Source of the DNA: Desulfobacteraceae bacterium
Lineage (GTDB): Bacteria > Desulfobacterota > Desulfobacteria > Desulfobacterales > JAABTS01
Length of the DNA stretch: 40,284 bases
Reading direction: 5' to 3'
Assembly (NCBI GenBank): GCA_011389735.1
Contig: JAABTS010000034.1
Span: 1 to 40,284 of the forward strand
The notes below the pieces were generated by a model that ran no database searches, had not been told where the DNA came from, and worked only from the letters and a program-made list of their open reading frames with translations. Shown in pieces: positions 2,152 through 39,052 of this stretch. A program made the position numbers and the translations under genes. The first letter of the stretch is position 1. Each line of letters begins with the position of its first letter.

Positions 2152-2841
2152 GTGAAAACAGGTTACAAAAAAATGTGGTTATACCTTGCAATGTCGGCCA
2201 TGCTGGCCATGAACGCCGGATGTTCGTCGGATGACGATTGCTGTTCGGAAGATACGCCGCAGGGTTCCGGAGCGGAAGTCATTGCTCCCGCCGACGGTTC
2301 AGTATTCACAACGAACGATGCTATTGTGGCGTTCGTCGGGTCGGTGTCGGACGCCGACGGATCGGAACAATACCGGTGGGTGTCCAGCATGGACGGCGAA
2401 CTGGGAACCGGGTCGGAACTTGAAGTTTCGACGGCGGCTCTGTCAACCGGCGTTCATCAAATCACCATGGAAGTCTACCGGGGAGATGTCATGATCGGCG
2501 CCGGGGATATCGTGATCACAGTTTCCGGCGAAACGGTCGATTCTCCCCCGGAAACTTTCATTCGAAGCGCTCCTCCCGAATCATTTTCCGGAAACCATTT
2601 TGTCCGGTTTTCCTGGGAAGGCGTCGATCCGGCGGGCGGATCCTTGTTTTTCCGTTATCAACTGGAAGGGCCGATTACTACCAACGGGTGGATAAACACC
2701 GAAGCCCTGGAAAACGAACCCGTTTGCATCAACGTATCCGGAGAATATACGTTTACCGTTCTGGCGGTCAATGAGCAGACCGGCCTTTCAGATCCGACCC
2801 CGGCGGTGTACCGGTTTGAGGCGGATGCTTGTTCCACCTGA
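2152..2841 (+). CDS. Putative lipoprotein with Ig-like domains
   Basis: 229 residues from a GTG start with GGAGG at 2143-2147. A hydrophobic leader ends NAGCSSDDDCC, a lipobox-like site with Asn at -3 (non-canonical) and an acidic Cys-rich stretch after it. Residues about 40-125 form an Ig/PKD-like repeat, with IVAFVGSVSDADGSEQYRW followed by LSTGVHQITMEV. Residues about 130-225 form a second Ig/FN3-like module (VRFSWEGVDPAGGSLFFRYQLEG). It probably sits on the cell surface or in the outer membrane as an adhesion or binding module. It lies 40 bp after the barrel gene and is likely co-transcribed. The ligand cannot be inferred. Confidence 0.65.
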   Translation: MKTGYKKMWLYLAMSAMLAMNAGCSSDDDCCSEDTPQGSGAEVIAPADGSVFTTNDAIVAFVGSVSDADGSEQYRWVSSMDGELGTGSELEVSTAALSTGVHQITMEVYRGDVMIGAGDIVITVSGETVDSPPETFIRSAPPESFSGNHFVRFSWEGVDPAGGSLFFRYQLEGPITTNGWINTEALENEPVCINVSGEYTFTVLAVNEQTGLSDPTPAVYRFEADACST

Positions 2842-2859
2842 GGGAGCGTGCCTTGTGTA

Positions 2860-2878
2860 GATTTCTAGGATAGAAATC
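2860..2878. repeat. Perfect small hairpin after the lipoprotein gene
   Basis: GATTTCTA-GGA-TAGAAATC, extended by CCTTG/CAAGG outside a bulge. It lies 19 bp after the stop at 2841. There is no U-run on the + strand, so it is a weak terminator candidate, or mRNA 3'-end protection. Confidence 0.4.
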
Positions 2879-2979
2879 AAGGTTTCAAAAGAAAACAATT
2901 TGATTAATGTATACAAGCTCGCTGTTTAATAAAGAACTCTCACCAGGACTCCAGGCAAAGAACGATCTTAGCGCCTTTG

Positions 2980-3159
2980 GGGCTTGATTCTAAGATCGGC
3001 CGGAGCGCCGTTAGTAGGGTAAGCCGGGGGTTGCAAACCCCCTCTGAGCGGGTCTCTTGCTCTGAGCGGGTTTGTAACCCGCGACTTACGAAGTGCGGCC
3101 TTCGGCTTTGGCGCTCCAGAGCAACCCGAGAAATTATGGCCGAAATTAGAACCAAGCCC
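2980..3159. mobile_element. Family A palindromic element, copy A1, with 8-bp direct repeats
   Basis: The ends are inverted repeats: GGGCTTGATTCTAAGATCGG at 2980-2999, mirrored by a right end reading GGCCGAAATTAGAACCAAGC into CCC at 3159. The element is flanked on both sides by CGCCTTTG (2972-2979 and 3160-3167), an exact 8-bp direct repeat. Inside are GGAGCGCC/GGCGCTCC and a long imperfect palindrome running from GTAAG (3019-3023) to CTTAC, with a direct repeat CTCTGAGCGGGT around its centre. Several ORFs overlap it, but none has a start signal or family resemblance. Copy A2 shares nearly the same interior. Confidence 0.85.
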
Positions 3160-3191
3160 CGCCTTTGTGAGATCTTTCATGCGGAAAAAAT

Positions 3192-3213
3192 GGTCGAAGA
3201 TAGAACCAATGCC
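3192..3213. repeat. Isolated family A-like right end
   Basis: GGTCGAAGATAGAACCAATG resembles the family A right end GGCCGAAATTAGAACCAAGC. No clear left partner is visible. A degraded one may lie at 2951-2970 (CAGGCA...GATCTT), in which case copy A1 was inserted into an older relative. Confidence 0.4.
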
Positions 3214-3245
3214 TGTTCCGGAAATTCAATTCTGAAAGAATATAT

Positions 3246-3370
3246 GGCGTCTTTCATAAATTATGATAAATAGTTTGCACTTCCCAAATCGGTATCGAAA
3301 TCGGCGTCGGTATCGAATTATTACGATCCCGATCCCGATCCCGATCCCGATCCCGATAATTAAGGATGCC
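3246..3370. mobile_element. Family D element, copy D2, with exact 8-bp direct repeats
   Basis: It begins GGCGTCTTTCAT and ends AAGGATGCC (the reverse complement starts GGCATCCTT). It is flanked by GAATATAT at 3238-3245 and again at 3371-3378. The core contains ATCGGTATCG/ATCGGCGTCGG units followed by five GATCCC hexamers (about 3326-3357), which can fold back on the upstream ATCGGnnTCG units. It ends 14 bp before the 3' end of the MORN gene. Confidence 0.85.
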
Positions 3371-3384
3371 GAATATATCATCCA

Positions 3385-3951
3385 TTATTGACTCATTTTG
3401 CTCATGAAACGGCCATTTGAAAACCGTCCTTCTTCTTTTTTGCCGTCGGGGTATTCCATGACGCCCTGCCCTGAAATTGAATTATTCGTCATTTCACCAA
3501 TATATTTTCTTCCGTCCGGAAATTTGACGATTCCCTTTCCATGAGGCGCGCCATTCTCAAACTCACCTTCATAAACGACGCCGTTGCCCATGGTCAAAAC
3601 CCCCTTATGCATTTCATCGTCTTTAAACCGGCCTGAAAATTTGGTCGTCCCGCCGTTAAAAGTGAATGTTCCCCGGCCTTCCTTGATCCCGTTTTTCACT
3701 TCGCCTTCATAAACCCCTTTTCCGGGATTAATGAATTTTCCTTTTCCATTGGGGGCTCCGTCTTTAAATTCCCCCCGGTATTCGACGCCGTCGCTTCTTT
3801 TCATTACCCCTTCACCGTTTTTGCAATTTCCTTCAAGACATTCTGTCTTCAATTCCGGCCTTAAAGCTTTACAACCGCAGCCGACGGCGAATACGTTCAC
3901 AGGGATAAAAGCGAGGGTGGAAATAAATGCAATCAACACAATTCTTGACAT
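3385..3951 (-). CDS. Exported MORN-repeat protein
   Basis: 188 residues. The ATG at 3951 has AGGAG upstream on the minus strand. Residues 1-22 form a signal peptide (IVLIAFISTLAFIPVNVFA). A short cysteine-rich segment follows (VGCGCK, ECLEGNC), then about five to six MORN repeats of the YxGEFxxGxxxGKG type (YRGEFKDGAPNGKG, YEGEVKNGIKEGRG, YEGEFENGAPHGKG, YIGEMTNNSISGQG), covering nearly the whole mature chain. MORN repeats are beta-hairpin modules; in bacteria their partners are mostly unknown. The signal peptide puts this one in the periplasm or at the surface. The cysteines after the cleavage site could carry a lipid (weak lipobox AVGC) or form disulfides. It is a single-gene unit; a minus-strand TATAAT lies at 3975-3980 without a good -35. 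Confidence 0.8.
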   Translation of the reverse strand: MSRIVLIAFISTLAFIPVNVFAVGCGCKALRPELKTECLEGNCKNGEGVMKRSDGVEYRGEFKDGAPNGKGKFINPGKGVYEGEVKNGIKEGRGTFTFNGGTTKFSGRFKDDEMHKGVLTMGNGVVYEGEFENGAPHGKGIVKFPDGRKYIGEMTNNSISGQGVMEYPDGKKEEGRFSNGRFMSKMSQ

Positions 3952-4006
3952 AGCGAATCTCCTTTTTTTTAAAGATTATAAATTTTGTTTTTTATTGTTG
4001 TGTAAA

Positions 4007-4054
4007 ATGGCGGGCGGGACGCCCGCGCTCCCAGGATTACCTTCTCACACCCTG
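4007..4054. repeat. GC-rich double hairpin between MORN gene and acr3
   Basis: GGCGGGC-GGGAC-GCCCGC is followed by CCCAGG...CCTGGG. These are two adjacent stem-loops in the 137-bp spacer. They lie just 3' of acr3 on the minus strand but lack a U-run, so a role as acr3 terminator is uncertain. Confidence 0.4.
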
Positions 4055-4088
4055 GGGTGATCGCCTCGAACATGAACGTTATTTTCAT

Positions 4089-5276
4089 TCACTTATCAGT
4101 GTGGGAAAACCAATGTCTGGTGTTCAAACAAATTTTTACCAGCATCAGCATCACAGGCACTTCAATCAGAACACCCACGACCGTGGCAAGAGAAGCGCCC
4201 GACGACAGCCCGAACAACATGGTCGATGTGGCGATCGCCACCTCGAAATGGTTCGATGCGCCGATCATCGCCGAAGGCGCGGCGTCTTCGTATTCAAATT
4301 TGAAAAATTTCGACAGTCCGTATCCGATCCCGAAAATCAGCACCGTCTGAATGAACAACGGAACCGCGATCCATAGAATGCTCAACGGGTTGGATACAAT
4401 TACCTCTCCCTTGAATGAGAACAGAAGAATCAGCGTAATCAGGAGTGCGGATATGGTGATGGGCGTCAGAACATGAAGAAATTTTTGATTGAACCATTCC
4501 TCGCCTTTAGCGCTGATAATGGCTTTGCGGGAAATATAGCCGGCGACTAAAGGCAGTGCGACATATATTCCTATTGAAAGCAGCAACGCCTGCCAGGGAA
4601 CCGGCAATTTCCCGACGCCCAGAAGCAATCCGCCAAGAGGGCCGTAAAGAAACAGCATGGTCAATGAATTGATAGCGACCATGACAAGCGTGTGTCCGTC
4701 ATTGCCTTTCGCCAGAAAACCCCATACCAGGACCATGGCGGTGCAGGGCGCGATTCCCAATAGAATGCATCCCGCCAGGTAACTGCGCCAGAGAGGAACC
4801 TGAAGCATTTTCACGCCGTCATGCAAAACAACCATGCCGACGCCGTGCGTTTCTCCAACCTGTAAATTCATTCCTAACGGCATTTTTACATAATCCACCG
4901 CGTCCGGTCCGATCAGATGATAAAATACCGTTCCCAGAAAAAAGACTGAAATTCCGTACATGGTGAACGGCTTGACAGCCCAGTTGACGACCAAAGTCAA
5001 TGCGACCGGTTTGAAATTTTTGCCGGCGGCCAGCACCTGAGTGAAATCGATCTTGACCATGATCGGATACATCATGAAAAACAAACAAATTGCGATTGGG
5101 ATTGAAACAACGGGGGCTCCGTTCACATAAACCGCCATTCCGTCCAGATATTTTGCGACACCCGGCGCAATCTTGCCCAGCAGGACGCCGCACAGAATAC
5201 ATAACGCCACCCAGACATAGAGATATCTTTCAAACCATCCCAACCCTTTTCCTGATTGTTCAACGGACTCTTTCAT
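4089..5276 (-). CDS. acr3: Arsenite efflux permease, Acr3 family
   Basis: 395 residues, a usual length for Acr3. About ten hydrophobic segments, beginning [21 protein letters not shown]. The conserved Acr3 cysteine is present in [18 protein letters not shown], and the following transmembrane helix and the [23 protein letters not shown] region match the family. It exports arsenite using the proton-motive force. Its start overlaps the end of arsC by 4 bp (ATGA), so the two genes form a coupled detoxification operon: ArsC makes arsenite and Acr3 pumps it out. No arsR or arsA lies nearby. Confidence 0.93.
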
Positions 5277-5716
5277 ACTGTTTCCTTAATTATCATAAAT
5301 ACATCCGGCATACTTTCCACAAATCCTTTGATTTCATCTCTTACTCTTCGATAGATTCCAAGCGCCGCTTTTTCATCCAAACCGGCCGCCAATTTCGGCG
5401 GATCGTCAAAACTCTGGTGGATGCGCCTTGTGTTCCCTGGAAAAAAGGGACAGGTTTCGTTGGCGTGATCACATACGGTCACGACATAATCGAATCGCAT
5501 ACCTGCTAATGAATCCACATGCTTCGCCTGATTTTGGGAAATGTCGATTCCCACTTCGTTCATGACCTTTACCGCATTGATATCCACAACGCCGGGATTC
5601 ACTCCAGCGGAATACGGGATAAACAGATCCTTTCTTAAATACCCTGTCCAGGCTTCCGCTATCTGGCTGCGGCAAGAATTTCCCGTGCATAAAAACAGAA
5701 TGTTTTTTCGTTCCAT
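5273..5716 (-). CDS. arsC: Arsenate reductase, thioredoxin-coupled LMW-PTP type
   Basis: 147 residues. The P-loop CTGNSCR (CX5R) at residues 10-16 follows ILFL. A second cysteine pair in [14 protein letters not shown] (about residues 82 and 88) is the redox relay of the Staphylococcus pI258 type, which uses thioredoxin rather than glutaredoxin. It reduces arsenate to arsenite in the cytoplasm. It is the first gene of the arsC-acr3 operon. A minus-strand TATAAT at 5750-5755, about 35 bp upstream, is a candidate -10; no matching TTGACA is seen. Regulation is not visible because no ArsR gene or clear ArsR-type palindrome is present. Confidence 0.93.
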
Positions 5717-5881
5717 CGGTTCGATCTCTGTTTCTGATTCGTCATTTCAATTATAGCCCTTATTCACATCCGGATAAACGGCGATCCATTCAGGTGCAAA
5801 GTTTCCCGGCCTGGACGCCACGAAGATTATCGATAACCGGAATGATTTCCGGGGCAACGTTCAACCAGTATCGTAAATTTT

Positions 5882-6028
5882 GGGCTTGATTCCATTTTCG
5901 GCCAGTATTTTTTTACCGCAAAGGCGCAAAGAGCGAAAAGCATATAATTTATTTCACCTTTGCGAACTCTGCGTCTCTGCGGTGAGTTTTTTCAAACGGT
6001 GGTCGTGGCCGAAGTTATAACCAAGCCC
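5882..6028. mobile_element. Family A element, copy A3
   Basis: Left end GGGCTTGATTCCATTTTCGG at 5882-5901; right end GGCCGAAGTTATAACCAAGC reaching CCC at 6028. The two ends match at about 17 of 22 positions. Inside, ACCGCAAAGGCGCAAAGAG (from 5914) pairs imperfectly with CTCTGCGTCTCTGCGGT (to about 5983). The flanks are TAAATTTT on the left and TAAATTGG on the right, so six of eight bases are repeated. The second copy runs straight into element A2. Confidence 0.7.
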
Positions 6029-6034
6029 TAAATT

Positions 6035-6209
6035 GGGCCTGGTTCTAAGATCGGCCGGAGCCCAGGGGTAAGCCGGGGGTTGCAAAACCCCTCTGAGCGG
6101 GTCTCTTGCTCTGAGCGGGTTTGCAACCCGCGACTTACGAAGCGCCGGTCTCCGGCTTCGGCGCTCCGGAGCAACCCGAGAAACTATGGCCGAAATTAAA
6201 ATCAAGCCC
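6035..6209. mobile_element. Family A element, copy A2, abutting A3
   Basis: Starts GGGCCTGGTTCTAAGATCGG and ends CCGAAATTAAAATCAAGCCC. The interior is almost the same as A1, including GGGGTTGCAAA, the duplicated CTCTGAGCGGGT and the CTTCGGCGCTCC arm. It begins six bases after A3 ends. No direct repeat flanks A2 alone, as expected if it was inserted beside or into the A3 target duplication, or arose by recombination. Confidence 0.75.
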
Positions 6210-6828
6210 CACAAACACATAATTCCCGATTTTGAAGCATTTTCACGATTTTCAATCTATTTTGATCTTAAAGCGATTTCATGACGTTCATAAATTGTTT
6301 CATCATATTCTCCATCCAATATTCCAATACAGGAATATATAAATTCAATTATTTTTATTGTCAACATATTTTTCGGGTTTTGAATTCTGATGTTTGACAA
6401 ATATTTTTTGTAATATGAAACGATTAGCATTTTTAATGCGAAAGTTTCAACATTCTGTAATTATGGAGAAAAAAATTGTTGGAGCGAGACGCCCCTTGTT
6501 TCCGAACTTTATTTATACCAACTTAAACGTTTGTATTTTTAGTGTAATCCGTGTCGGTTTTTCTTTTTCGAAACTCAAGCATATCTTATGTATAGGAAAT
6601 TGTGTCCGGCTTTTCCTTTTTGAAAAACCAAAATGTGCGTTTTGAAAACCCGAAATGGCCCTGACGGACTTTCACTTTTCTATTGTGAACATTCCTATAA
6701 TTGCATATTGTATCTATTTATGAGGGTTTCATGGAATTTCAATTAAGGTCGAAGACAAGCAGAGCTGTGTTCAGCAGGATTTGCAGTGTAATTTTTATTT
6801 TTCTCGGGCTGGATATTTAAATAGGCAG
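6210..6828. other. Gene-free AT-rich stretch
   Basis: No credible gene. A TTGACA at 6394-6399 has no properly spaced -10. A short ATG frame at 6731-6820 (23 codons, beginning MEFQLRSK and turning hydrophobic) could be the start of a lost membrane protein, but it has no ribosome site. An 83-codon frame at 6394-6645 has no family resemblance. Confidence 0.5.
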
Positions 6829-6845
6829 GGGGTTGGTTCTAAGAT
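6829..6845. repeat. Family A left end truncated by a family B element
   Basis: GGGGTTGGTTCTAAGAT matches the first 17 bases of family A (GGGCTTGATTCTAAGAT) and then switches directly into CAATACCC, the family B terminus. Confidence 0.6.
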
Positions 6846-7013
6846 CAATACCCATGAATGAATACCATTCAGCCGGTTTTATCCGCGTAGAACAGGCATC
6901 CTTGCCTGTTTATCCGCGTAGAACAGGCATCCTTGCCTGTTTTTTCCCGTAAAACAGGCATCCTTGCCTGTTAAACCGCCTGTCATCGCCATTTTTAATT
7001 TTGTAAAAAAATA
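6846..7013. mobile_element. Family B element, copy B1, right end missing
   Basis: Starts CAATACCCATGAATGAATAC, as in B2. It contains three copies of the palindrome AACAGGCATCCTTGCCTGTT at 6891-6910, 6922-6941 and 6953-6972 (31-bp period), against one copy in B2. The later part (CCGCCTGTCA.CGCC, then A-rich to ATATG) aligns with B2 to about 7013, after which the right terminal repeat is absent. Confidence 0.75.
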
Positions 7014-7107
7014 TGCTGATTTCCGGAACACCATAGCATAGCTATAGCATCAGTAATACGCCGTCGAGGGACGAGGACGGTTTCCAACGGGGGTTTGTAG
7101 TGTCAGA

Positions 7108-8388
7108 TCAGTCATCATCAAAATCATCATCGTCCCAGTCAGGATATTGATCAGGCGCTTTTCCTGTTTTTTGGAGCAGTTTTGGTTTTTTCAAATCCGG
7201 ATCGATATCTCCGATTTCCTCCAGTTTTACGATAAATTCCCAGTTGTCCCCGAAATCATATAAAAACAATACGATTTGTCCAGGCGTCCTAAAAACTTCC
7301 TTGATTGGTGTTTCATCGGCCAGGGGCGGATCTTCCATGTACGGATGATTGATGAACGATCTTTTTCCAATATCATTCTCATAAATAAATTTGTAGAGAT
7401 GGTCAAAATCAAAATCAAAGTGATTCAGAATTGTTTCCGCCAGAAAATCAAAAGTCAAATCGCCGGGAAAAGCAAATGTTCGTTTTGCGCGCCCTAAAGA
7501 AACGTTAAGAACGAACACGCCTTCTTTTATTTCTTGTTCCGGCGACACCAAATTGTTTTTCCAATCCTTGAAATAGGGGGAGAATCGATTCTGTAGTTTG
7601 CCGAACGGTTCGTTTTCGTCATCAATCCTGCTGGGGAATATAATATGGAACCCCTTTTCGGGGCTGACGAACCTTCCGTCGGTCAAAAAAATTAGAAACG
7701 CTTTTCCCAGTGAATTTTTTCGGATGGAAAGAAGATTGCATCCCTTACCGGGCTCAGGATCGCCGTATTCCAAATCGATAAATCCGAAAAGGTTCAATAA
7801 GGAAAGAAAGAGACGCCCCGGCAGATACCGGAGATAGCCGGAAAAATCAGCGTCATTTTGAATCGTGACGATATCTTTGCCGCTGGTGTATTCATCGAAT
7901 TTTTTCCATCTGAACAAAGGGCCGTTGTATCTGCCTGTGTCGGATTCTCCGATGATTTCCAATGAACCTCTAAACCACCACGCCTCCAGTAATGTGAAAT
8001 ATTTTTCGACTGGATTTAGTGATCGCCATGATTTGAGAACATCTTCGTTGGGGACGATCCTGTATTTGTTATTCTCAAGGTCGATTTTAGCTACTCGCGT
8101 CGTTCTCAGCAACAAGTATAAGCCGTTAACGTTTGGAAATGATTTTTGAATCGGCCGCTTTAGATCGACTTGAAGCGGTTCGGTCAACCTCGAATTCAGT
8201 TCGATGGGAGTTTTGCCGGTGAGCATTTTGTTTTTAGAGCCGATAACAGGTTTTTGTTCGGCGACGAAATCCAGCATTGTTTCAAAATCACGCAGAATGG
8301 TTCCCGGCCCATTTTCGTCAATCACCAGATCCGTCAAGATACGTTCAACATCGGTTGTGCTTTTTATTTTCTTGTCTTTTTTTTTCAT
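7108..8388 (-). CDS. Plasmid pRiA4b ORF-3 family domain protein with long N-terminal region
   Basis: 426 residues. Residues about 290-410 match the PRiA4b_ORF3 domain (PF07929): VFVLNVSLGRAKRTFAFPGD, then HLYKFIYE, an acidic stretch with a TPIKEVF element, and the signature LFLYDFGDNWEFIVKLEEI. The tail is acidic (DWDDDDFDDD). The first 280 residues (for example NGLYLLLRTTRV and EAWWFRGSLEIIG) are not recognised; they include Trp-rich segments and may be a helical or winged-helix region. The molecular function of the domain is unknown. The gene stands alone; the region upstream of its ATG is AT-rich with a poor ribosome site, so the start is uncertain. It neighbours several palindromic repeats. 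Confidence 0.8.
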   Translation of the reverse strand: MKKKDKKIKSTTDVERILTDLVIDENGPGTILRDFETMLDFVAEQKPVIGSKNKMLTGKTPIELNSRLTEPLQVDLKRPIQKSFPNVNGLYLLLRTTRVAKIDLENNKYRIVPNEDVLKSWRSLNPVEKYFTLLEAWWFRGSLEIIGESDTGRYNGPLFRWKKFDEYTSGKDIVTIQNDADFSGYLRYLPGRLFLSLLNLFGFIDLEYGDPEPGKGCNLLSIRKNSLGKAFLIFLTDGRFVSPEKGFHIIFPSRIDDENEPFGKLQNRFSPYFKDWKNNLVSPEQEIKEGVFVLNVSLGRAKRTFAFPGDLTFDFLAETILNHFDFDFDHLYKFIYENDIGKRSFINHPYMEDPPLADETPIKEVFRTPGQIVLFLYDFGDNWEFIVKLEEIGDIDPDLKKPKLLQKTGKAPDQYPDWDDDDFDDD

Positions 8389-8436
8389 TTTTTATTGACT
8401 CTTGGTTTGAAAGTGAGAAGATTGAGTATCACTTGT

Positions 8437-8502
8437 ATCGCCTTACAGATATTAAATTTCACTGTATCGCCAGCCTGGAATTTAATTTCTGAATGTTTAT
8501 AG
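8437..8502. repeat. Family C compact palindrome, copy C8
   Basis: CAGATATTAAATTTCACTG and CCAGCCTGG are followed by GAATTTAATTTCTGAATG and TTATAG. This is a shortened version of the family C arms without an inner core. It lies 49 bp upstream of the pRiA4b-domain gene start. Confidence 0.6.
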
Positions 8503-8682
8503 CAAATTCCGATGATTCTTTCAAGGCCCCGACGTTCCAAAATCAAACTACGGCGGCCGGGAAGTTTGGTTTCGGGCGCCGAAACGGAACTAAAATCCAA
8601 TCTACCGCAAATTAAGTTGAAAGCATTCCCGGTTTACCGGCCCGTCTGAAAAACCTTAAATGCGGATATCCCAGATTTGAAA
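8503..8682. other. Spacer without recognisable features
   Basis: About 180 bp between C8 and D1. Short GC-rich inverted bits such as GGCGCCGAAACGG occur, but no gene, promoter or repeat family is recognised. Confidence 0.4.
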
Positions 8683-8690
8683 CAAATTAC

Positions 8691-8778
8691 GGCATCCTTC
8701 ATAAACCCAGGAAAGTGGTTGACACTTTCCAAGTCGGGATCCCGATTTCAAAGTGTAAACTGACAGATGAAGGATGCC
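8691..8778. mobile_element. Family D element, copy D1, with exact 8-bp direct repeats
   Basis: It is 88 bp long. GGCATCCTTCAT at 8691-8702 is the perfect reverse complement of ATGAAGGATGCC at 8767-8778. The exact 8-bp direct repeat CAAATTAC lies at 8683-8690 and 8779-8786. The core is a second palindrome, ACACTTTCCAAGTCGGGATC folding onto GATCCCGATTTCAAAGTGT, centred on GGGATCCC. It lies about 40 bp upstream of the catalase promoter. Confidence 0.9.
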
Positions 8779-8817
8779 CAAATTACCATCAAAACGACGA
8801 TCAATAGAAAATTACGC

Positions 8818-8846
8818 TTGACAATTAAGAATAAATACTATTTAAT
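8818..8846 (+). promoter_or_regulatory. Candidate katA promoter
   Basis: TTGACA (8818-8823), 17-bp spacer, TTTAAT (8841-8846), 124 bp upstream of the chosen catalase start. CTATTTAATAG at 8838-8848 is a near palindrome over the -10. A peroxide or iron repressor could act here, but no established PerR, Fur or OxyR site is clear. Confidence 0.5.
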
Positions 8847-8970
8847 AGCCTTTCAAAAAATTCATTCGCTGCGGCGATGAATTCCTGGAAGGCTGTATAC
8901 ATGAATTATCGGCGATCGCCCATTATTGAATGGAAATATGAACCCTGTCATCAATTCAGAGGAGGACACA

Positions 8971-10428
8971 ATGACCGAAAAAAAGAAATTGACCAACAAC
9001 GCAGGAGCCCCTGTAGCCGACAATCAAAATGTCATGACCGCGGGACCACGCGGCCCCATGCTGCTTCAGGATGTATGGTTTCTCGAAAAGCTCGCCCATT
9101 TCGACCGGGAAGTCATTCCGGAACGCCGGATGCATGCAAAAGGTTCCGGCGCATATGGTGATTTTACGGTCACTCATGACATTACCGGATACACGAAGGC
9201 CAAAATCTTTTCGGAGATCGGGAAAAAAACCGACTTGTTTATACGTTTTTCCACGGTTGCCGGTGAACGGGGAGCGGCGGACGCGGAGCGGGATATTCGA
9301 GGTTTTGCGATCAAATTTTACACCGACGAAGGAAATTGGGATCTGGTGGGGAATAATACGCCCGTGTTTTTTTTGCGGGACCCGCTCAAATTTCCGGATT
9401 TGAATCACTCCGTCAAGCGTGATCCCCGCACGAATCTGCGAAGCGCCCGGAACAACTGGGATTTCTGGACATCGCTGCCTGAATCGCTGCATCAGGTCAC
9501 AATCACCATGAGCGACCGTGGAATCCCGTATTCATATCGCCATATGCACGGTTTCGGAAGTCATACTTTCAGCATGATCAATGCGGACAACGAACGGTTT
9601 TGGGTCAAATTCCACCTGCATACTCAACAGGGAATCAAGAATCTCACCGATGCGGAAGCCGAAACGGCTATCGGCAAATGTCGGGAAAGCCATCAGCGGG
9701 ATTTGTACGATAGCATCGAAAAAGGCGATTTTCCTCGCTGGACCCTGTATATTCAGGCCATGCCGGAAAAAGAGGCGTCGTCCTGTCCATACAATCCCTT
9801 TGACCTTACCAAGGTCTGGTTCCATAAGGACTATCCCTTGATCGAGGTCGGCGTGCTTGAATTGAACCGCAATCCTGAAAATTATTTCGCCGAGGTCGAA
9901 CAGTCCGCATTCAATCCGGCCGGCATTGTGCCGGGAATTGGATTTTCTCCGGATAAAATGTTGCAGGGGCGCCTGTTTTCCTATGCCGACGCCCAGCGAT
10001 ACCGGCTCGGCGTAAACCACCACCTGATTCCGGTCAACGCGCCCCGATGCCCTTTCCATAGCTACCACCGCGACGGCGCCATGCGGGTGGACGGCAATTA
10101 TGGAAGCACCCTGGGCTATGAACCGAACAGCTATGGCGAATGGATGGAACAGCCCGACTTTTCCGAACCGCCCCTCAGCCTGGAAGGCTCTGCCGACCAC
10201 TGGAATCATAGGGAGGACGACGATTATTACTCTCAACCCGGAAGATTGTTCCGAATGATGACCGCCGAACAGAAGCAGGCGCTTTTTGGGAATACGGTCA
10301 GGGCCATGGGCGATGCGCCCAAAGAGATCAAAATCCGGCATATAGGCAATTGTTTGAAAGCTGATCCGGAATACGGAAAAGGCGTGGCCGAGGAACTTGG
10401 AATACCGCTCAGTGAAGTCCCGAAATAG
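8971..10428 (+). CDS. katA: Monofunctional heme catalase
   Basis: 485 residues from the ATG at 8971, which has a strong AGAGGAGG at 8958-8964; an in-frame ATG at 8926 lacks this and would add 15 residues absent from the family. Small-subunit clade length. The distal histidine is in [11 protein letters not shown], the distal asparagine in [13 protein letters not shown], the proximal heme tyrosine in [15 protein letters not shown], and the NADPH-region motif family is retained ([13 protein letters not shown]). It breaks hydrogen peroxide into water and oxygen in the cytoplasm. There is no signal peptide. In an anaerobe it would protect against transient oxygen. It is a single-gene unit with its own candidate promoter at 8818-8846. 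A family D element sits upstream and a family C element follows its 3' end. Confidence 0.95.
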
Positions 10429-10511
10429 AGTTTGCCTTTTAACGCCGGTCAATCCGGAATCCGGGCGGCGTCCCGAATTTCAACGTGCAATGATTCGTCA
10501 TTTCGGGGAAA

Positions 10512-10694
10512 TATAGTTTTTCAGAAATTAAAGTTCACGAGGCGGCGGCCCGGGGATTGTTGAATTTTTTGTTGAATGCTAAATGTTAAATGTTAAATGT
10601 TAAATGATGGGACTTACATTCAACATTCAACATAAGAAAATTCGTATATCTCCGGGCCGGCAACACAGTGAAATCAATTATCTGAAAAGCTATG
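10512..10694. repeat. Family C palindromic element, copy C1
   Basis: The left arm starts TATAGTTTTTCAGAAATTAA and runs through GGCGGCGGCCCGGGG (to 10555). The right arm starts CTCCGGGCCGGCAACACAGT and ends CTGAAAAGCTATG. The arms are imperfect reverse complements over about 45 bp. The core holds TTAAATG units repeated three times and, on the other side, CATTCAACATTCAACAT, which pairs back with TTGTTGAATG. It lies 83 bp after katA. I see no flanking target duplication. Confidence 0.7.
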
Positions 10695-10754
10695 GCAATA
10701 TCTCGGGACTGCCGCTTTGGAGATTTTAATTTTTTTAAACCTGTAGCATCCGGA

Positions 10755-10892
10755 AGGCTTGGTTCTAACTTCGGCCATTTCCATTTATCGGGATCGATAT
10801 CGGGATCGGGATCGAAATTAAATCCTTCGATTACGATCCCGATCCCGATTCCGATTTGAACATATCGATTGGCCGAAAATAGAACCAAGCCC
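10755..10892. mobile_element. Family A element, copy A4, with 8-bp direct repeats and GATCCC core
   Basis: Left end AGGCTTGGTTCTAACTTCGG from 10755; right end GGCCGAAAATAGAACCAAGC, ending CC at 10892. It is flanked by CATCCGGA at 10747-10754 and 10893-10900 (the match continues two bases into the element start). The core is unlike A1 and A2: it is a palindrome of GGGATC units (10790-10807) against GATCCC units (about 10837-10850), the same type as in family D copy D2. Confidence 0.85.
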
Positions 10893-10963
10893 CATCCGGA
10901 AGATTGGAATATGAAAAAAATCGGCTGTATGATAAGAAAAAAAGTATAAAGGTGAAACGGATT

Positions 10964-12085
10964 ATGTTGACTGAAACAGCGATCATCGAAGAAGGAAAAC
11001 GGCTGGGGTTTGAAGATGTCGGTTTTACGACCGCTGATCCATTTGAAGATCACAAGCGGTTACTGATGGAGCGGCGCGAAGAATACGGATGGGCTGAAAG
11101 CGTGGGCCTGGACCTGTTGAGCGGCGTTGATCCGAAAAATATCATGCCTGGAGCCCAATCCATTATCGTTCTCATGGAGGTTTATTTCCGGAAAGCCTAT
11201 CCCCGTTCAATGGAAGGGTGTTTCGGAAGGTGTTATCTCGATGACGACCGGGTGACGCGGGACGGGCTTTACCAGCGTATAAAGGCGTTCAGGGGATTTT
11301 TGCGCGATCACGGGATCGATTCCAAAACGCCGTTTAACCTGCCCCATCGTGTGGCGGCGGCTCGAGCGGGAATGGGAACATTCGGTAAAAACTGCCTGTT
11401 TTACTCGAATTCCGTCGCTCGGGGCGGTTCCTGGACGCTTCCCATCGCCGTGGTCGTGGACAGGGCCTTCGCGCCGGGAACTGCGACCGTAAAAACCGAT
11501 TGTCCGGATTGGTGCAGGAACGTATGCATCGCCGCCTGCCCGACCAGGGCGCTCAAGGGAAACAGCCGGATCGATCCACGAAAATGCATTTCTTATCTGA
11601 CCTATTTCGGCGAAGGCATAACGCCGCTTGAATTAAGAGAGCCGATGGGGATGTACGTTTACGGCTGCGACCGGTGTCAGAACGTCTGCCCTCGAAACCG
11701 CCCCTGGCTGGCTCAGGAACTTCCCATGAACGAAAAGGTCCTCGCCAAAGCGAATGATTTCAACCTTCCGGCTTTGCTTCATATGGACAAAACTTACTTT
11801 GAAACCAAAATCTGGCCCCATATGTTTTACATGTCTTACAATGATATCTGGCGATGGAAAATGAACGTCGCCAGAGTCATGGGAAACAGCCGTGATGGAG
11901 GATACATTCCGGATTTGATACGTGCGCTCGAAGAAAACAGCGACGACCGTGTTAAAGGCATGGCGGCCTGGGCTCTCGGGAATATCGGCGGCAAAGACGC
12001 CCGGCGGGGGCTTGAATCGGCGAGGGGAAAAAATTTTGCGGAGACCGAAAATGAAATTGAATCGGCGCTGGCGCGTTTTTCGTAA
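10964..12085 (+). CDS. QueG-like 4Fe-4S double-cluster protein with HEAT-type tail
   Basis: 373 residues from the ATG at 10964 (AAAGG at 10948-10952). The N-terminal DUF1730-like region carries LPHRVAAARAGMGTFGKNCLFYS, close to the QueG pattern. It continues to a first cluster region CPDWCRNVCIAACPTRAL, then RKCISYLTYFGEGI and the second cluster YGCDRCQNVCPRN. Residues about 300-373 look like a HEAT/PBS repeat (DGGYIPDLIRALEENSDDRVKGMAAWALGNIGG), also found in QueG. Epoxyqueuosine reductase makes queuosine in tRNA using cobalamin. Here the first cluster has a CxxxCxxxCxxxCP arrangement rather than the standard CxxCxxCxxxCP, so it may be a QueG paralogue with another substrate. No other queuosine gene is nearby. 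It converges with the gene ending at 12130. Confidence 0.75.
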   Translation: MLTETAIIEEGKRLGFEDVGFTTADPFEDHKRLLMERREEYGWAESVGLDLLSGVDPKNIMPGAQSIIVLMEVYFRKAYPRSMEGCFGRCYLDDDRVTRDGLYQRIKAFRGFLRDHGIDSKTPFNLPHRVAAARAGMGTFGKNCLFYSNSVARGGSWTLPIAVVVDRAFAPGTATVKTDCPDWCRNVCIAACPTRALKGNSRIDPRKCISYLTYFGEGITPLELREPMGMYVYGCDRCQNVCPRNRPWLAQELPMNEKVLAKANDFNLPALLHMDKTYFETKIWPHMFYMSYNDIWRWKMNVARVMGNSRDGGYIPDLIRALEENSDDRVKGMAAWALGNIGGKDARRGLESARGKNFAETENEIESALARFS

Positions 12086-14011: not shown

Positions 14012-14265
14012 ATATAGCTTTTCAGGTAATTAATTTCACTGCGTTGTCGGCCCGGGGATATGCGAATTTTATTGTGTTGAATGTTGAGTGAGGGTGCAGG
14101 GTACAGAGTGCAAGGTCAAGGTGGAGGCTTTTTCATAATTCCGGTTCCAGCCTGCCTCCTTGAACCTGCCCCCTGAAGCCTGCACCCTTAATTCAGCACT
14201 CAACACAAAATGCAACAATCCCGGGCCTGCAGCCTTGTGAAATCAAATTTCTGAAAACCTGTAGC
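14012..14265. repeat. Family C palindromic element, copy C2, with long hairpin core
   Basis: The left arm ATATAGCTTTTCAGGTAATT continues through CGGCCCGGGG (to 14057). The right arm ATCCCGGGCCTGCAGCCTTG ends CTGTAG. The core is a further long palindrome: TTGTGTTGAATGTTGAGTGA continuing with AGGGTGCAGGG and GTGGAGGC, against GCCTCCTTGAACC, GCCTGCACCCT and CAGCACTCAACACAA. The whole 250 bp can fold into one hairpin between the TetR operon and the hydrolase gene. Confidence 0.75.
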
Positions 14266-19918: not shown

Positions 19919-20028
19919 GATATAGTCTTTCGCAAATTAAATTTCACTGCTTTGTGGGCCTGGAGTGTACGAATATAGCATTATCTACTCCTTCTATTCT
20001 TCTGAAGTGTAATATCTGAAAACTATAG
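19919..20028. repeat. Family C palindromic element, copy C4
   Basis: The left arm ATATAGTCTTTCGCAAATTA continues through TTTCACTGCTTTGTGGGCCT. The right arm is shorter and ends ATATCTGAAAACTATAG. It begins only 3-5 bases after the phosphatase stop codon and could form a 3'-end hairpin on its mRNA. No target duplication is seen. Confidence 0.6.
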
Positions 20029-20059
20029 AACGATCTTGCAATGAATCATTTCGAAATTC

Positions 20060-20221
20060 GGCATACTTCATTGATCAGTTTACACTTTTATGGTTGTCAC
20101 ACAAAGGCACAAAGAACACAAAGTCTTCATTTCTTTGCGCCTTCGTGTCTTTGTGTGACATGAATCCTGATTTTTGTATTGGAAAAGTGTAGACTACTTT
20201 GGCGCCTTTTTGAAAGATGCC
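20060..20221. mobile_element. Family D element, copy D3, with exact 8-bp direct repeats
   Basis: It starts GGCATACTTCATTGATCAGT and continues TTACACTTTT; it ends AAAAGTGTAGACTAC...TGAAAGATGCC. The exact repeat CGAAATTC lies at 20052-20059 and 20222-20229. The core is a strong hairpin: GTCACACAAAGGCACAAAGA (20096 on) pairs with CTTTGCGCCTTCGTGTCTTT...GTGTGAC (to about 20159). Confidence 0.88.
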
Positions 20222-21564: not shown

Positions 21565-21697
21565 CAATACCCGTGAATGAATACCATTCATCCGGTTTTA
21601 TCCCAGTAGAACAGGCATCCTTGCCTGTTTATACCGCCTGTCAGCGCCGTTATTAATGTTGTTCAAAAATATGAATCGAATTCATGCATGGGTATTG
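21565..21697. mobile_element. Family B element, copy B2, with 10-bp direct repeats
   Basis: It is 133 bp long. CAATACCCGTGAATGAAT at the left and ATTCATGCATGGGTATTG at the right match as inverted repeats at 16 of 18 positions. The exact direct repeat GAACTAAAGG lies at 21555-21564 and 21698-21707; the left copy contains the methyltransferase stop codon. The core has one palindrome AACAGGCATCCTTGCCTGTT (21610-21629). Confidence 0.9.
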
Positions 21698-34382: not shown

Positions 34383-34451
34383 GAATAAGCCTGAAAAACC
34401 GTATATATGGATTCCATTTTGTTGCCCATGGGTCTCAAAAGGTGTTGTACA

Positions 34452-34560
34452 TATAGGTTTTCAGAAATTAAATTTAACAAAACGGCGGGCCCGGGATCAT
34501 ACTCTTCGTAGATATCCCGGGCCGGCGACGCAGTGAATTTTTATTTCTGGAAGACTATAG
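34452..34560. repeat. Family C palindromic element, copy C5
   Basis: The left arm ATATAGGTTTTCAGAAATTA continues through GGCGGGCCCGGGATCAT. The right arm GATATCCCGGGCCGGCGACG continues to TTTCTGGAAGACTATAG. This is the cleanest family C copy, with about 45-bp arms and a 10-bp loop. The left flank GTACA and right flank GTTCA are only similar. It lies between ctpA and the yibQ-like gene. Confidence 0.75.
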
Positions 34561-34610
34561 TTCAGGTTTTACCGAAAACGGCGGCCTTTGGAGTAGCTTT
34601 CGATCAAGCG

Positions 34611-38901: not shown

Positions 38902-38968
38902 CAGCCTTTCAGAATTCGCATATCCCGGGCTGATAGCGCAGTGGAATTTGATTTCTGGAAAACCATAG
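38902..38968. repeat. Family C palindrome with short left arm, copy C7
   Basis: CAGCCTTTCAGAATT is a left stub. The full right arm starts CATATCCCGGGCTGATAGCG and ends TTTCTGGAAAACCATAG. It lies 85 bp beyond the 3' end of the transglycosylase gene. Confidence 0.6.
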
Positions 38969-39052
38969 CTCGGAAAGCCTGTAAACGATAAGCTCGGATT
39001 TTATCCGTTAGCGCCGAAAGTCAATTAGTTCATCGATTCGTTTTCAGTAAGA

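Follow-up and report, generated by a model that had tools for sequence, protein, structure and literature searches.

Short palindromic elements (family A) recur along a 40,284-nucleotide stretch of a Desulfobacteraceae bacterium contig, here called the window. They raise the question of whether such sequences are mobile and, if so, which enzyme has moved them.

Family A copies in the window

The relevant features were as follows (unstranded unless a strand is given):

2972-2979: left target duplication of A1, CGCCTTTG, read from the sequence
2980-3159: A1, complete MITE of 180 bp, GGAGCG/CATAAT subfamily, interior strongly palindromic
3160-3167: right target duplication of A1, CGCCTTTG, an exact match to the left one
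3191-3214, minus strand: relic single end of family A, 3 mismatches, own partner not seen
5882-6028: A2, MITE of 147 bp, interior type different from that of A1, flanks TAAATTTT and TAAATTGG (6/8 bases shared)
6035-6209: A3, MITE of 175 bp, A1 subfamily, 6 bases from A2
6829-6842, plus strand: left end of family A, alone; another repeat (CAATACCC...) begins within 3 bases
10747-10754: left target duplication of A4, CATCCGGA, read from the sequence
10755-10892: A4, MITE of 138 bp, interior of GATCCC/GGGATC hexamers in an inverted array
10893-10900: right target duplication of A4, CATCCGGA, an exact match to the left one

The exact 8-bp repeats that a preliminary description had reported around A1 (CGCCTTTG) and A4 (CATCCGGA) were confirmed, giving an exact duplication for two of the four complete copies. 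Its further claim of six repeated bases out of eight beside “A3” held for the element at 5882-6028 but not for its neighbor at 6035-6209, whose flanks (CCTAAATT and CACAAACA) agree at only 4/8 positions and show no visible duplication. The sequence GGGCTTGGTTCTAA had 10 matches in the window (≤3 mismatches) versus 3.03 expected, a count reached by none of 100 shuffled windows (maximum, 9). A mover gene inside the window was ruled out: paired A ends lie at most 180 bp apart, leaving no room for a transposase.

Ends, duplications, and an empty site across genomes

Across the 6.5-Mb host assembly, the 22-base terminal repeat GGGCTTGGTTCTAANNTCGGCC was found 490 times with ≤3 mismatches (249 forward, 241 reverse), and the reversed-pattern control was found in neither orientation. 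The A1 subfamily alone has at least 40 nearly full-length copies. Flanks of 20 bp were extracted for 51 distinct complete elements, a sample in which end pairs were sought at 80 to 400 bp only and well-preserved copies are over-represented, the loci having been picked by best A1 score, exact end, or family D end (see below). Rather than random flanks, this revealed exact, flush duplications in 34 of the 51 copies (27 of 8 bp and 7 of 9 bp); tolerating one mismatch added 3, for a total of 37, and left 14 copies without a duplication. When flush exact repeats of 4 to 12 bp were screened in the same copies, only 8 or 9 bp was ever the longest, and exchanging flanks among elements gave at least 7/8 agreement in 40 of 9,976 draws (0.4%). 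All but one of the 51 copies measured 134 to 195 bp; they are non-coding, and interiors diverge among subfamilies while the ends are retained.

A nested copy made an empty site available inside one genome. Once its A1-type copy and one ATTGAATC are removed, locus L012 is identical to L034 in 140 of the 144 columns aligned without gaps; the 24 columns with gaps all lie away from the junction, where L034 has a single ATTGAATC. In a search of genome contigs, exact 22-base ends were identified in 24 stretches from 15 genomes, all with titles naming Desulfobacterota-type organisms (two genomes merely as “Deltaproteobacteria bacterium”), and 8 of 15 end pairs from these genomes were flanked by an exact 8-bp repeat.

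The genome-wide ends, the flanks, and the empty site thus bear out the earlier proposal that family A is of transposon type with 8-bp target duplications. Family A combines terminal inverted repeats, a duplication of fixed length, a length too short for a transposase, and many copies, and its ends are shared with an autonomous element in another genome (L083, described below): these elements are MITEs, i.e., short, non-coding, non-autonomous transposons. Bacterial MITEs, for example MITEAba12 (PMC6382973), are likewise short and non-coding, with terminal inverted repeats, target duplications, and many copies. Family A differs from bacterial MITEs generally in that its partner comes from a family lacking a transposase annotation and in that several unrelated interiors occur under one end pair.

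DUF6399 as the candidate transposase

In a Desulfobulbaceae MAG, positions 1 to 1934 of L083 have an A end at either side, one with 2 mismatches and the other with 0, around one long ORF of 558 amino acids, which matches Pfam DUF6399 at an E value of 1.1e-39; the left flank is cut by the contig end, making the duplication unreadable there. Two other contigs of the same genome start in the end of the same gene (100% identity over 26 to 27 residues) and share the right end before entering different flanks, indicating at least three insertion sites of this 1,934-bp element. Among 17 hand-picked DUF6399 loci (loci without the C terminus, plus L089, L090, and L122 to L124, were omitted), an A-type end (0 to 5 mismatches over 22 bases) finished 29 to 53 bp beyond the gene or match end at nine, against a background of 14 hits in 89,668 bp; these nine are not independent, since a single element accounts for L083, L105, and L108, and one genome contains both L099 and L103. 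Of the remaining eight, L114 and L115 had no end, and the other six had either a different end type or half of an A end. At L090, outside the 17, an A-like end lies 56 bp away.

Scanning ten DUF6399 loci without preset ends revealed terminal repeats with exact 8-bp duplications at L121 (GTCCAACC) and L104 (TAGTTTAC), with ends matching at 19/22 positions and a score of 35.0 versus ≤28.5 for all other candidates listed; the resulting elements of 1,916 bp and 1,759 bp, respectively, each enclose the DUF6399 gene. The other eight (L083, L085, L098, L117, L119, L122, L123, and L124) gave no convincing combination of ends and duplication. A second scan of nine further loci added L103, internally deleted, with A-like ends (19/22) and the duplication ATCATAAT, and gave nothing convincing at the other eight. 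A DUF6399 gene within inverted repeats bounded by an 8-bp duplication, the definition that we propose for these elements, therefore describes L121, L104, and, in deleted form, L103.

DUF6399 matches occurred in 6 of the 15 exact-end genomes (5 of 14 excluding the query's own), with none in the other 9, and in 2 of 394 other genomes of the host's phylum. ORFs were listed inward of 19 A ends, with family scans for the two at L070 and a separate scan of the L083 protein; a full transposase was recognized in L083 only. The protein was found in Desulfobacterota, Gammaproteobacteria, and Cyanobacteria, and ends with duplications in the first two only. Searches of viral contigs and phage records returned no DUF6399 relative; plasmid searches returned four or five records each. 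At least three end types exist (GGGCTTGGTTCTAACTTCGGCC, GGCCTTGATCATCGTTTCGGCC, and GGCTACCTACCTAAGCCGGGAC), very different between sub-clades, and they track the protein tree with the minimum of two changes (0 of 200 shuffles as low), group A by itself forming one clade in just 29% of bootstrap trees. The A-type enzymes compared share 49 to 70% over the C-terminal domain and their ends are nearly identical between genera, so that end recognition can be tested directly across species.

A single full-length DUF6399 gene is present in the host assembly, its ends differing from the A type, together with three relics. Of these, C421 is A-like and consists of the C-terminal part and the inner half of an A end; no intact A-type autonomous copy was observed in the assembly, and such a copy seems to have decayed in this host. 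With only this C-terminal relic present, the MITEs, about 245 in number if each of the 490 ends has a partner, probably stem from a burst that is old or has been orphaned.

Several features of the DUF6399 proteins fit a transposase. D159, D213, D233, and E484 (L083 numbering) are invariant in all seven proteins compared, in a D...D...DxFH...E pattern as in ISL3-type transposases, with D233 belonging to the DxFH. An N-terminal HTH was detected, its best E value of 2.6e-5 falling just short of the Pfam cutoff, and three of the seven weakly matched the integrase core (rve; E, 0.026 to 0.079). Single members weakly matched NCBIfam models for IS481, IS3, IS21, and IS630 (the last, two members) at E values of 0.0012 to 0.013; the L083 protein had no NCBIfam match, and neither Pfam nor NCBIfam labels DUF6399 proteins as transposases. 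A PDB sequence profile search returned chance-level hits alone (E ≥ 0.044), and in PHROGs the L083 protein had one match (E, 1.3) and other members single weak matches (E ≥ 0.0035, among the best 25 of 36 families).

In alignment with ISL3 (PF01610), the first D, the second D, and the DxFH fall in the same register, and the ISL3-type trait of 8-bp duplications with GG ends is present in the DUF6399 and family A elements. The profile comparison (hhalign) was not significant (probability, 0.8%; P = 0.067; reversed control, P = 0.56). None of the seven proteins was listed by the Pfam or NCBIfam ISL3 models at E ≤ 10, a result to be read knowing that HMMER filters discard most weak matches. DUF6399 frames are 528 to 577 amino acids long (six untruncated), compared with 404 to 469 for ISL3 (11 used). 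No ISL3 is annotated in the first 50 kb of plasmid pWW0.

We therefore consider it very likely that a DUF6399-family transposase of the DDE type, acting in trans, amplified the family A MITEs. Such a transposase would recognize ends of the form GGGCTTGGTTCTAANNTCGGCCA, excise or copy the element, and insert it at an AT-rich target with a stagger of 8 bp (sometimes 9 bp), whose repair would leave the direct repeat. The DUF6399 protein would be the catalyst, an ISL3-like RNase H-fold enzyme with D159, D213, and E484 as its putative active site. It also seems somewhat more probable than otherwise that an unrecognized IS family, with ISL3-like chemistry, a separate sequence, and at least three end types following the protein tree, has DUF6399 proteins as its transposases and spread in Desulfobacterota largely as MITEs, in one genome by the hundreds after decay of the autonomous copy. 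This would offer a function open to testing for a Pfam family that has none assigned, point to a likely unlisted insertion-sequence family, and link one mover to hundreds of hairpin repeats here and to comparable repeats in sulfate reducers and cable bacteria. Among the open-licence PMC papers searched, none named DUF6399 or bore the letters of the end; one, on integrons, paired MITE with Desulfobact-, and one mentioned ISDol1, its ends not given in the accessible text.

Alternative explanations and family D

The predicted folds are very stable (A1, -99.9 kcal/mol, z = -9.0; A4, -75.4 kcal/mol, z = -11.4; A2, -52.7 kcal/mol, z = -5.1) and the four complete window copies lie, by coordinates, between large ORFs and never within them, as might be expected if family A were REP/BIME-like or RNA-level structured repeats with a cellular role (terminator, mRNA stability, nucleoid) and not transposons. 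Target duplications, nested insertions, and the empty site make this very improbable, as do subfamily interiors that vary while the ends stay, and Rfam had no match at gathering scores across 2900-11000. A cellular role is already disfavored by the duplications; a function could have been gained later.

If family A is mobile, a recognized transposase family (IS1595, ISL3, DDE_5 type, or other) might move it, the A ends on DUF6399 elements being coincidental or captured. ISL3 elements also have GG-starting ends and 8-bp duplications, at L163 (CTCCTTGG) and L165 (TACTTTCT) among 12 loci scanned, and IS1595 elements (PF12762) share 8-bp duplications and GG-rich ends with family A. Against this, the host search for known families, which covered these two, gave 0 matches to PF12762 and 0 to PF01610 at E ≤ 0.001, and both were set aside as movers; for IS1595, no match was listed for any DUF6399 protein either. 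L070 has two DDE_5 fragments (E, 5e-5 and 8e-5, below the cutoff) 0.4 to 1.5 kb inside an unpaired A end; the sequence following this end resembles the 132-bp MITEs at L064 and L080, and the fragments were taken as separate relics and set aside. With A ends adjoining DUF6399 genes at 9/17 loci and L083 holding the one full transposase recognized inward of the 19 ends, we regard a recognized family as an unlikely mover. Less likely still is a role for DUF6399 as an accessory or passenger gene, with catalysis by another recombinase. The domain has “unknown function” in Pfam, its catalytic role is predicted from sequence, and a fold prediction from the single L083 sequence was unusable (pLDDT, 39); yet DUF6399 is the sole long gene of the L083 element and lies inside those of L121 and L104, and the HTH, invariant acidic residues, and integrase-core matches fit a transposase. 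Amplification by a DUF6399 transposase thus remains the preferred reading.

A second family, D, had been described as separate from A with the same duplication length, and this was upheld: its ends (GGCATCCTTCATCTGTCAGTTTACACTTT) had 119 matches versus 0 in the control, and 19 of 30 D loci had an end pair with at least 7/8 flank bases repeated. No single consensus spanning the A and D ends was apparent. Like A, D has 8-bp duplications and, in some interiors, GATCCC hexamer hairpins; unlike A, its ends read GGCATCCTTCAT... and no partner was found, neither an autonomous element nor, by motif search, a DUF6399-like frame in the 30 loci, nor any such frame in the ORF lists for 8 of them. By eye, a DUF6399 sub-clade end (GGCTACCTACCTAAA) agrees with that of D (GGCATCCTTCATAAA) at 11/15 positions. 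The D ends may represent one more end type of the DUF6399 enzymes, and one transposase superfamily could possibly lie behind both families. At L031, a D copy is lodged within an A-type MITE.

Family A in the window and across the host genome

The preliminary description had placed two palindromic elements of family A, A1 and A4, between exact 8-bp flank repeats, and the window sequence bears out both the positions and the repeats. The copy that it credited with six of eight repeated flank bases fits the complete element at 5882-6028.

Family A copies in the window
2980-3159: A1, exact 8-bp repeat CGCCTTTG on both sides
3191-3214: lone relic end
5882-6028: A2, complete element, six of eight flank bases repeated
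6035-6209: complete element, four of eight flank bases repeated
6829-6842: lone relic end
10755-10892: A4, exact 8-bp repeat CATCCGGA on both sides

The window holds 10 family A ends (up to 3 mismatches), against 3.03 expected and a maximum of 9 in 100 shuffles. Across the host assembly (6.52 Mb, 477 contigs), the 22-base end GGGCTTGGTTCTAANNTCGGCC had 490 matches at up to 3 mismatches and its reversed control pattern none at that threshold; about 245 elements would therefore be present if every end is paired. At least 40 A1-type copies (40 candidates scored out of 490) could be aligned across almost the full element. Duplications were read from 51 distinct complete elements, each with 20 bp of flank on either side, taken from the window and from fetched loci (L001-L060, L125-L154), a sample in which well-kept copies are overrepresented because loci were chosen by A1 similarity, an exact end, or an end of family D, another MITE family of the window. 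Of these, 27 had an exact flush duplication of 8 bp and 7 one of 9 bp, and 37 of the 51 had a duplication once one mismatch was tolerated. With flanks swapped between elements, agreement at 7 or more of 8 positions arose in 40 of 9976 draws. Counting both reading directions, the targets of the 27 exact 8-bp duplications were AT-rich, with A preferred at positions 2-3 and T at positions 6-7.

A family A copy nested in another A-type MITE provided an empty site within the genome: with the insert and one ATTGAATC removed, the outer element equaled that of locus L034 at 140 of 144 ungapped columns, and the 24 gap columns (runs of 18 and 6) fell in hexamer arrays, none at the junction. For three further A4-type copies the match to this outer element was 82-87%. 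The gaps of 18 and 6 between the A4-type copies L012 and L034 suggest that the hexamer arrays may slip. Inverted GATCCC/GGGATC arrays lie inside A4-type and D-type MITEs alike (10785-10860 in the window; L034, L055, and L139). At 1360-1677 of L002, a composite combines an A4-type left end with an A1-type right end; its outer ends are bordered by an exact CATTATTT duplication, which gives the impression of two MITEs transposed together as a single unit.

In the genome_contigs collection, which may omit the host itself, the exact 22-base end occurred in 24 stretches from 15 genomes, including Candidatus Electrothrix, Desulfosarcina, Desulfamplus, Desulfobacter latus, and Desulfocicer; every one of the 24 titles was that of sulfate reducers, cable bacteria, or their uncultured relatives (two genomes being titled just Deltaproteobacteria bacterium). 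An exact 8-bp duplication accompanied 8 of 15 end pairs at these loci. With up to 1 mismatch, A ends were present in 4 of 395 genomes of the host's phylum, host counted, the other three being of one family. Such a patchy distribution fits mobile DNA, as expected.

Family A ends and DUF6399 elements

Family A very probably comprises ordinary MITEs whose unexpected partner is a putative transposase family, DUF6399, still listed as of unknown function. Locus L083 (Desulfobulbaceae MAG 13_Jan_SF_Bin14) has one A end at 1, with 2 mismatches, and another at 1934, with none, around a single long gene (229-1905), whose 558-aa product matched Pfam DUF6399 (E 1.1e-39) and no NCBIfam model. Its duplication is unreadable because the left end is the contig end; L105 and L108, two more contigs from this genome, start in the end of that gene and cross the same right end into differing flanks. 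Among 17 DUF6399 loci with a match reaching near the C terminus, an A-type end, mismatched at 0-5 of its 22 bases, finished 29-53 bp beyond the gene or match end in 9, which are partly dependent (L083, L105, and L108 represent a single element, and L099 and L103 come from one genome). The background for this search was 14 hits per 89,668 bp, in loci themselves containing real ends. Scanning 10 DUF6399 loci without a preset end sequence yielded ends with exact 8-bp duplications in two, each scoring 35.0 against at most 28.5 for all other displayed candidates.

DUF6399 elements recovered without a preset end
L121: Thiodictyon plasmid gene, 1916 bp, duplication GTCCAACC
L104: Desulfobacter latus gene (25% identity), 1759 bp, duplication TAGTTTAC

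Nine more loci gave one positive, L103, where an A-like pair of ends flanked by ATCATAAT left and right encloses a copy with an internal deletion. Three annotated plasmid proteins carry the public name "DUF6399 domain-containing protein." The family was present in 6 of the 15 genomes with an exact A end (5 of 14 without the query's own) and in 2 of 394 other genomes of the phylum (1 of 394 by the Pfam model), rates not strictly comparable with 6 of 15, as the phylum searches scored fewer candidates per genome.

Among ORFs listed inward of 19 A ends, a full recognizable transposase appeared in L083 only, the family scan being limited to fragments in L070. There, at 2435-3556, two degraded DDE_5-type transposase fragments in opposite orientation adjoin a family A end; they match DDE_5 below the cutoff and are read as separate relics because the sequence onward from that A end resembles that of the 132-bp MITEs in L064 and L080. 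Considered as movers, IS1595 and ISL3 had no match in the host assembly.

End types, host copies, and the DUF6399 protein

DUF6399 genes are associated with three end types: A, a second (GGCCTTGATCATCGTTTCGGCC), and a third (GGCTACC...GCCGGGAC). The second surrounds the host full-length gene (L085) and is one base off an end of the Thiodictyon element; the third occurs in the Desulfobacter latus element and two host relics (L119 by pattern, L117 by eye). Ends and enzymes go together: on a C-terminal-domain tree of 13 rows, 10 of them labeled by end type, the labels required the minimum of two changes (0 of 200 shuffles as low), and 100/100 support separated A and the second type from the third type with cyanobacterial and Methylomonas proteins. 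A alone formed one side of a branch in just 29% of bootstrap trees.

DUF6399 genes and relics of the host
C333: full-length gene, 557-aa frame, second end type
C189 and C230: relics, third end type
C421: relic, 64% identity to the L083 C terminus over 70 residues; of the A end, only TTCGGCCATT found

Three second-type ends lie around the full-length gene (L085 893-2842), and the scan without preset ends found no duplication there. The host assembly yielded no intact A-type element; it may be absent because repeats break contigs, or may truly have been lost. Some MITEs are similar to L083 past the terminal inverted repeat: the L083 right end shares 29 of its first 30 bases with an end of the Electrothrix MITE L061, and 27 of 30 with one end of the host MITE L047 (134 bp, 9-bp duplication). 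The other L047 end matches the L083 left end at only 22 of 30 (21 for the right end), and an origin of L047 by internal deletion, read by eye from the common GGGGTTGG and CCAATTA, thus stays a suggestion. The interiors of A1 and A4 are by eye unlike L083, so A ends have probably also been placed around foreign sequence. By eye, two host DUF6399 relics are also adjoined by a block that resembles ACTCACCGCAGAGGCGCAAAG of the A2 interior (5882-6028) (L119, minus strand; L086 from about 1735).

In L083 numbering, D159, D213, D233, and E484 were invariant across 7 of 7 DUF6399 proteins. Several weakly matched an HTH at the N terminus, the best at E 2.6e-5 and narrowly short of the Pfam cutoff, and three of the seven had weak integrase-core matches (E 0.026-0.079). 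NCBIfam transposase models for IS481, IS3, IS21, and IS630 were matched by single members (E 0.0012-0.013), and the HTH is the suspected source. In a profile comparison with 11 ISL3 proteins, the first D, second D, and DxFH of DUF6399 aligned in register, but the comparison was not significant (P 0.067, probability 0.8%; reversed control P 0.56). In a similar scan, 2 of 12 ISL3 loci had GG ends with exact 8-bp duplications. The DUF6399 protein may therefore be likened in its working to an ISL3-type transposase, without being classed as ISL3.

Family D and other repeats

D ends had 119 matches and their control 0, and of the 30 loci read, 19 showed 8-bp duplications agreeing at 7 or more positions. 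In L031 a D copy interrupts an A-type MITE; the empty site obtained from it measures exactly 134 bp and agrees with L047, ungapped, at 124 of 134 positions, and the duplicated 8-mers differ at one base. No partner transposase for D was found in the 30 D loci; the suggestion of the preliminary description that the A and D transposases may belong to a common superfamily is plausible.

Family D MITEs in the window (ends GGCATCCTTCAT and variants; exact 8-bp duplications by eye)
3246-3370: GAATATAT
8691-8778: CAAATTAC
20060-20221: CGAAATTC

A palindromic family whose ends resemble ATAGNTTTTCAGAAATTAAATTTCAC, with an inner GGCCCGGGAT, occupies 10512-10693, 14012-14263, about 19920-20030, 34451-34563, and 38920-38971; by eye, these window copies had no clear target duplication. 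A further repeat, with ends CAATACCC, lies at 21565-21697, where a 10-bp flank repeat GAACTAAAGG was seen by eye, and from 6846, 3 bases beyond a lone family A end.
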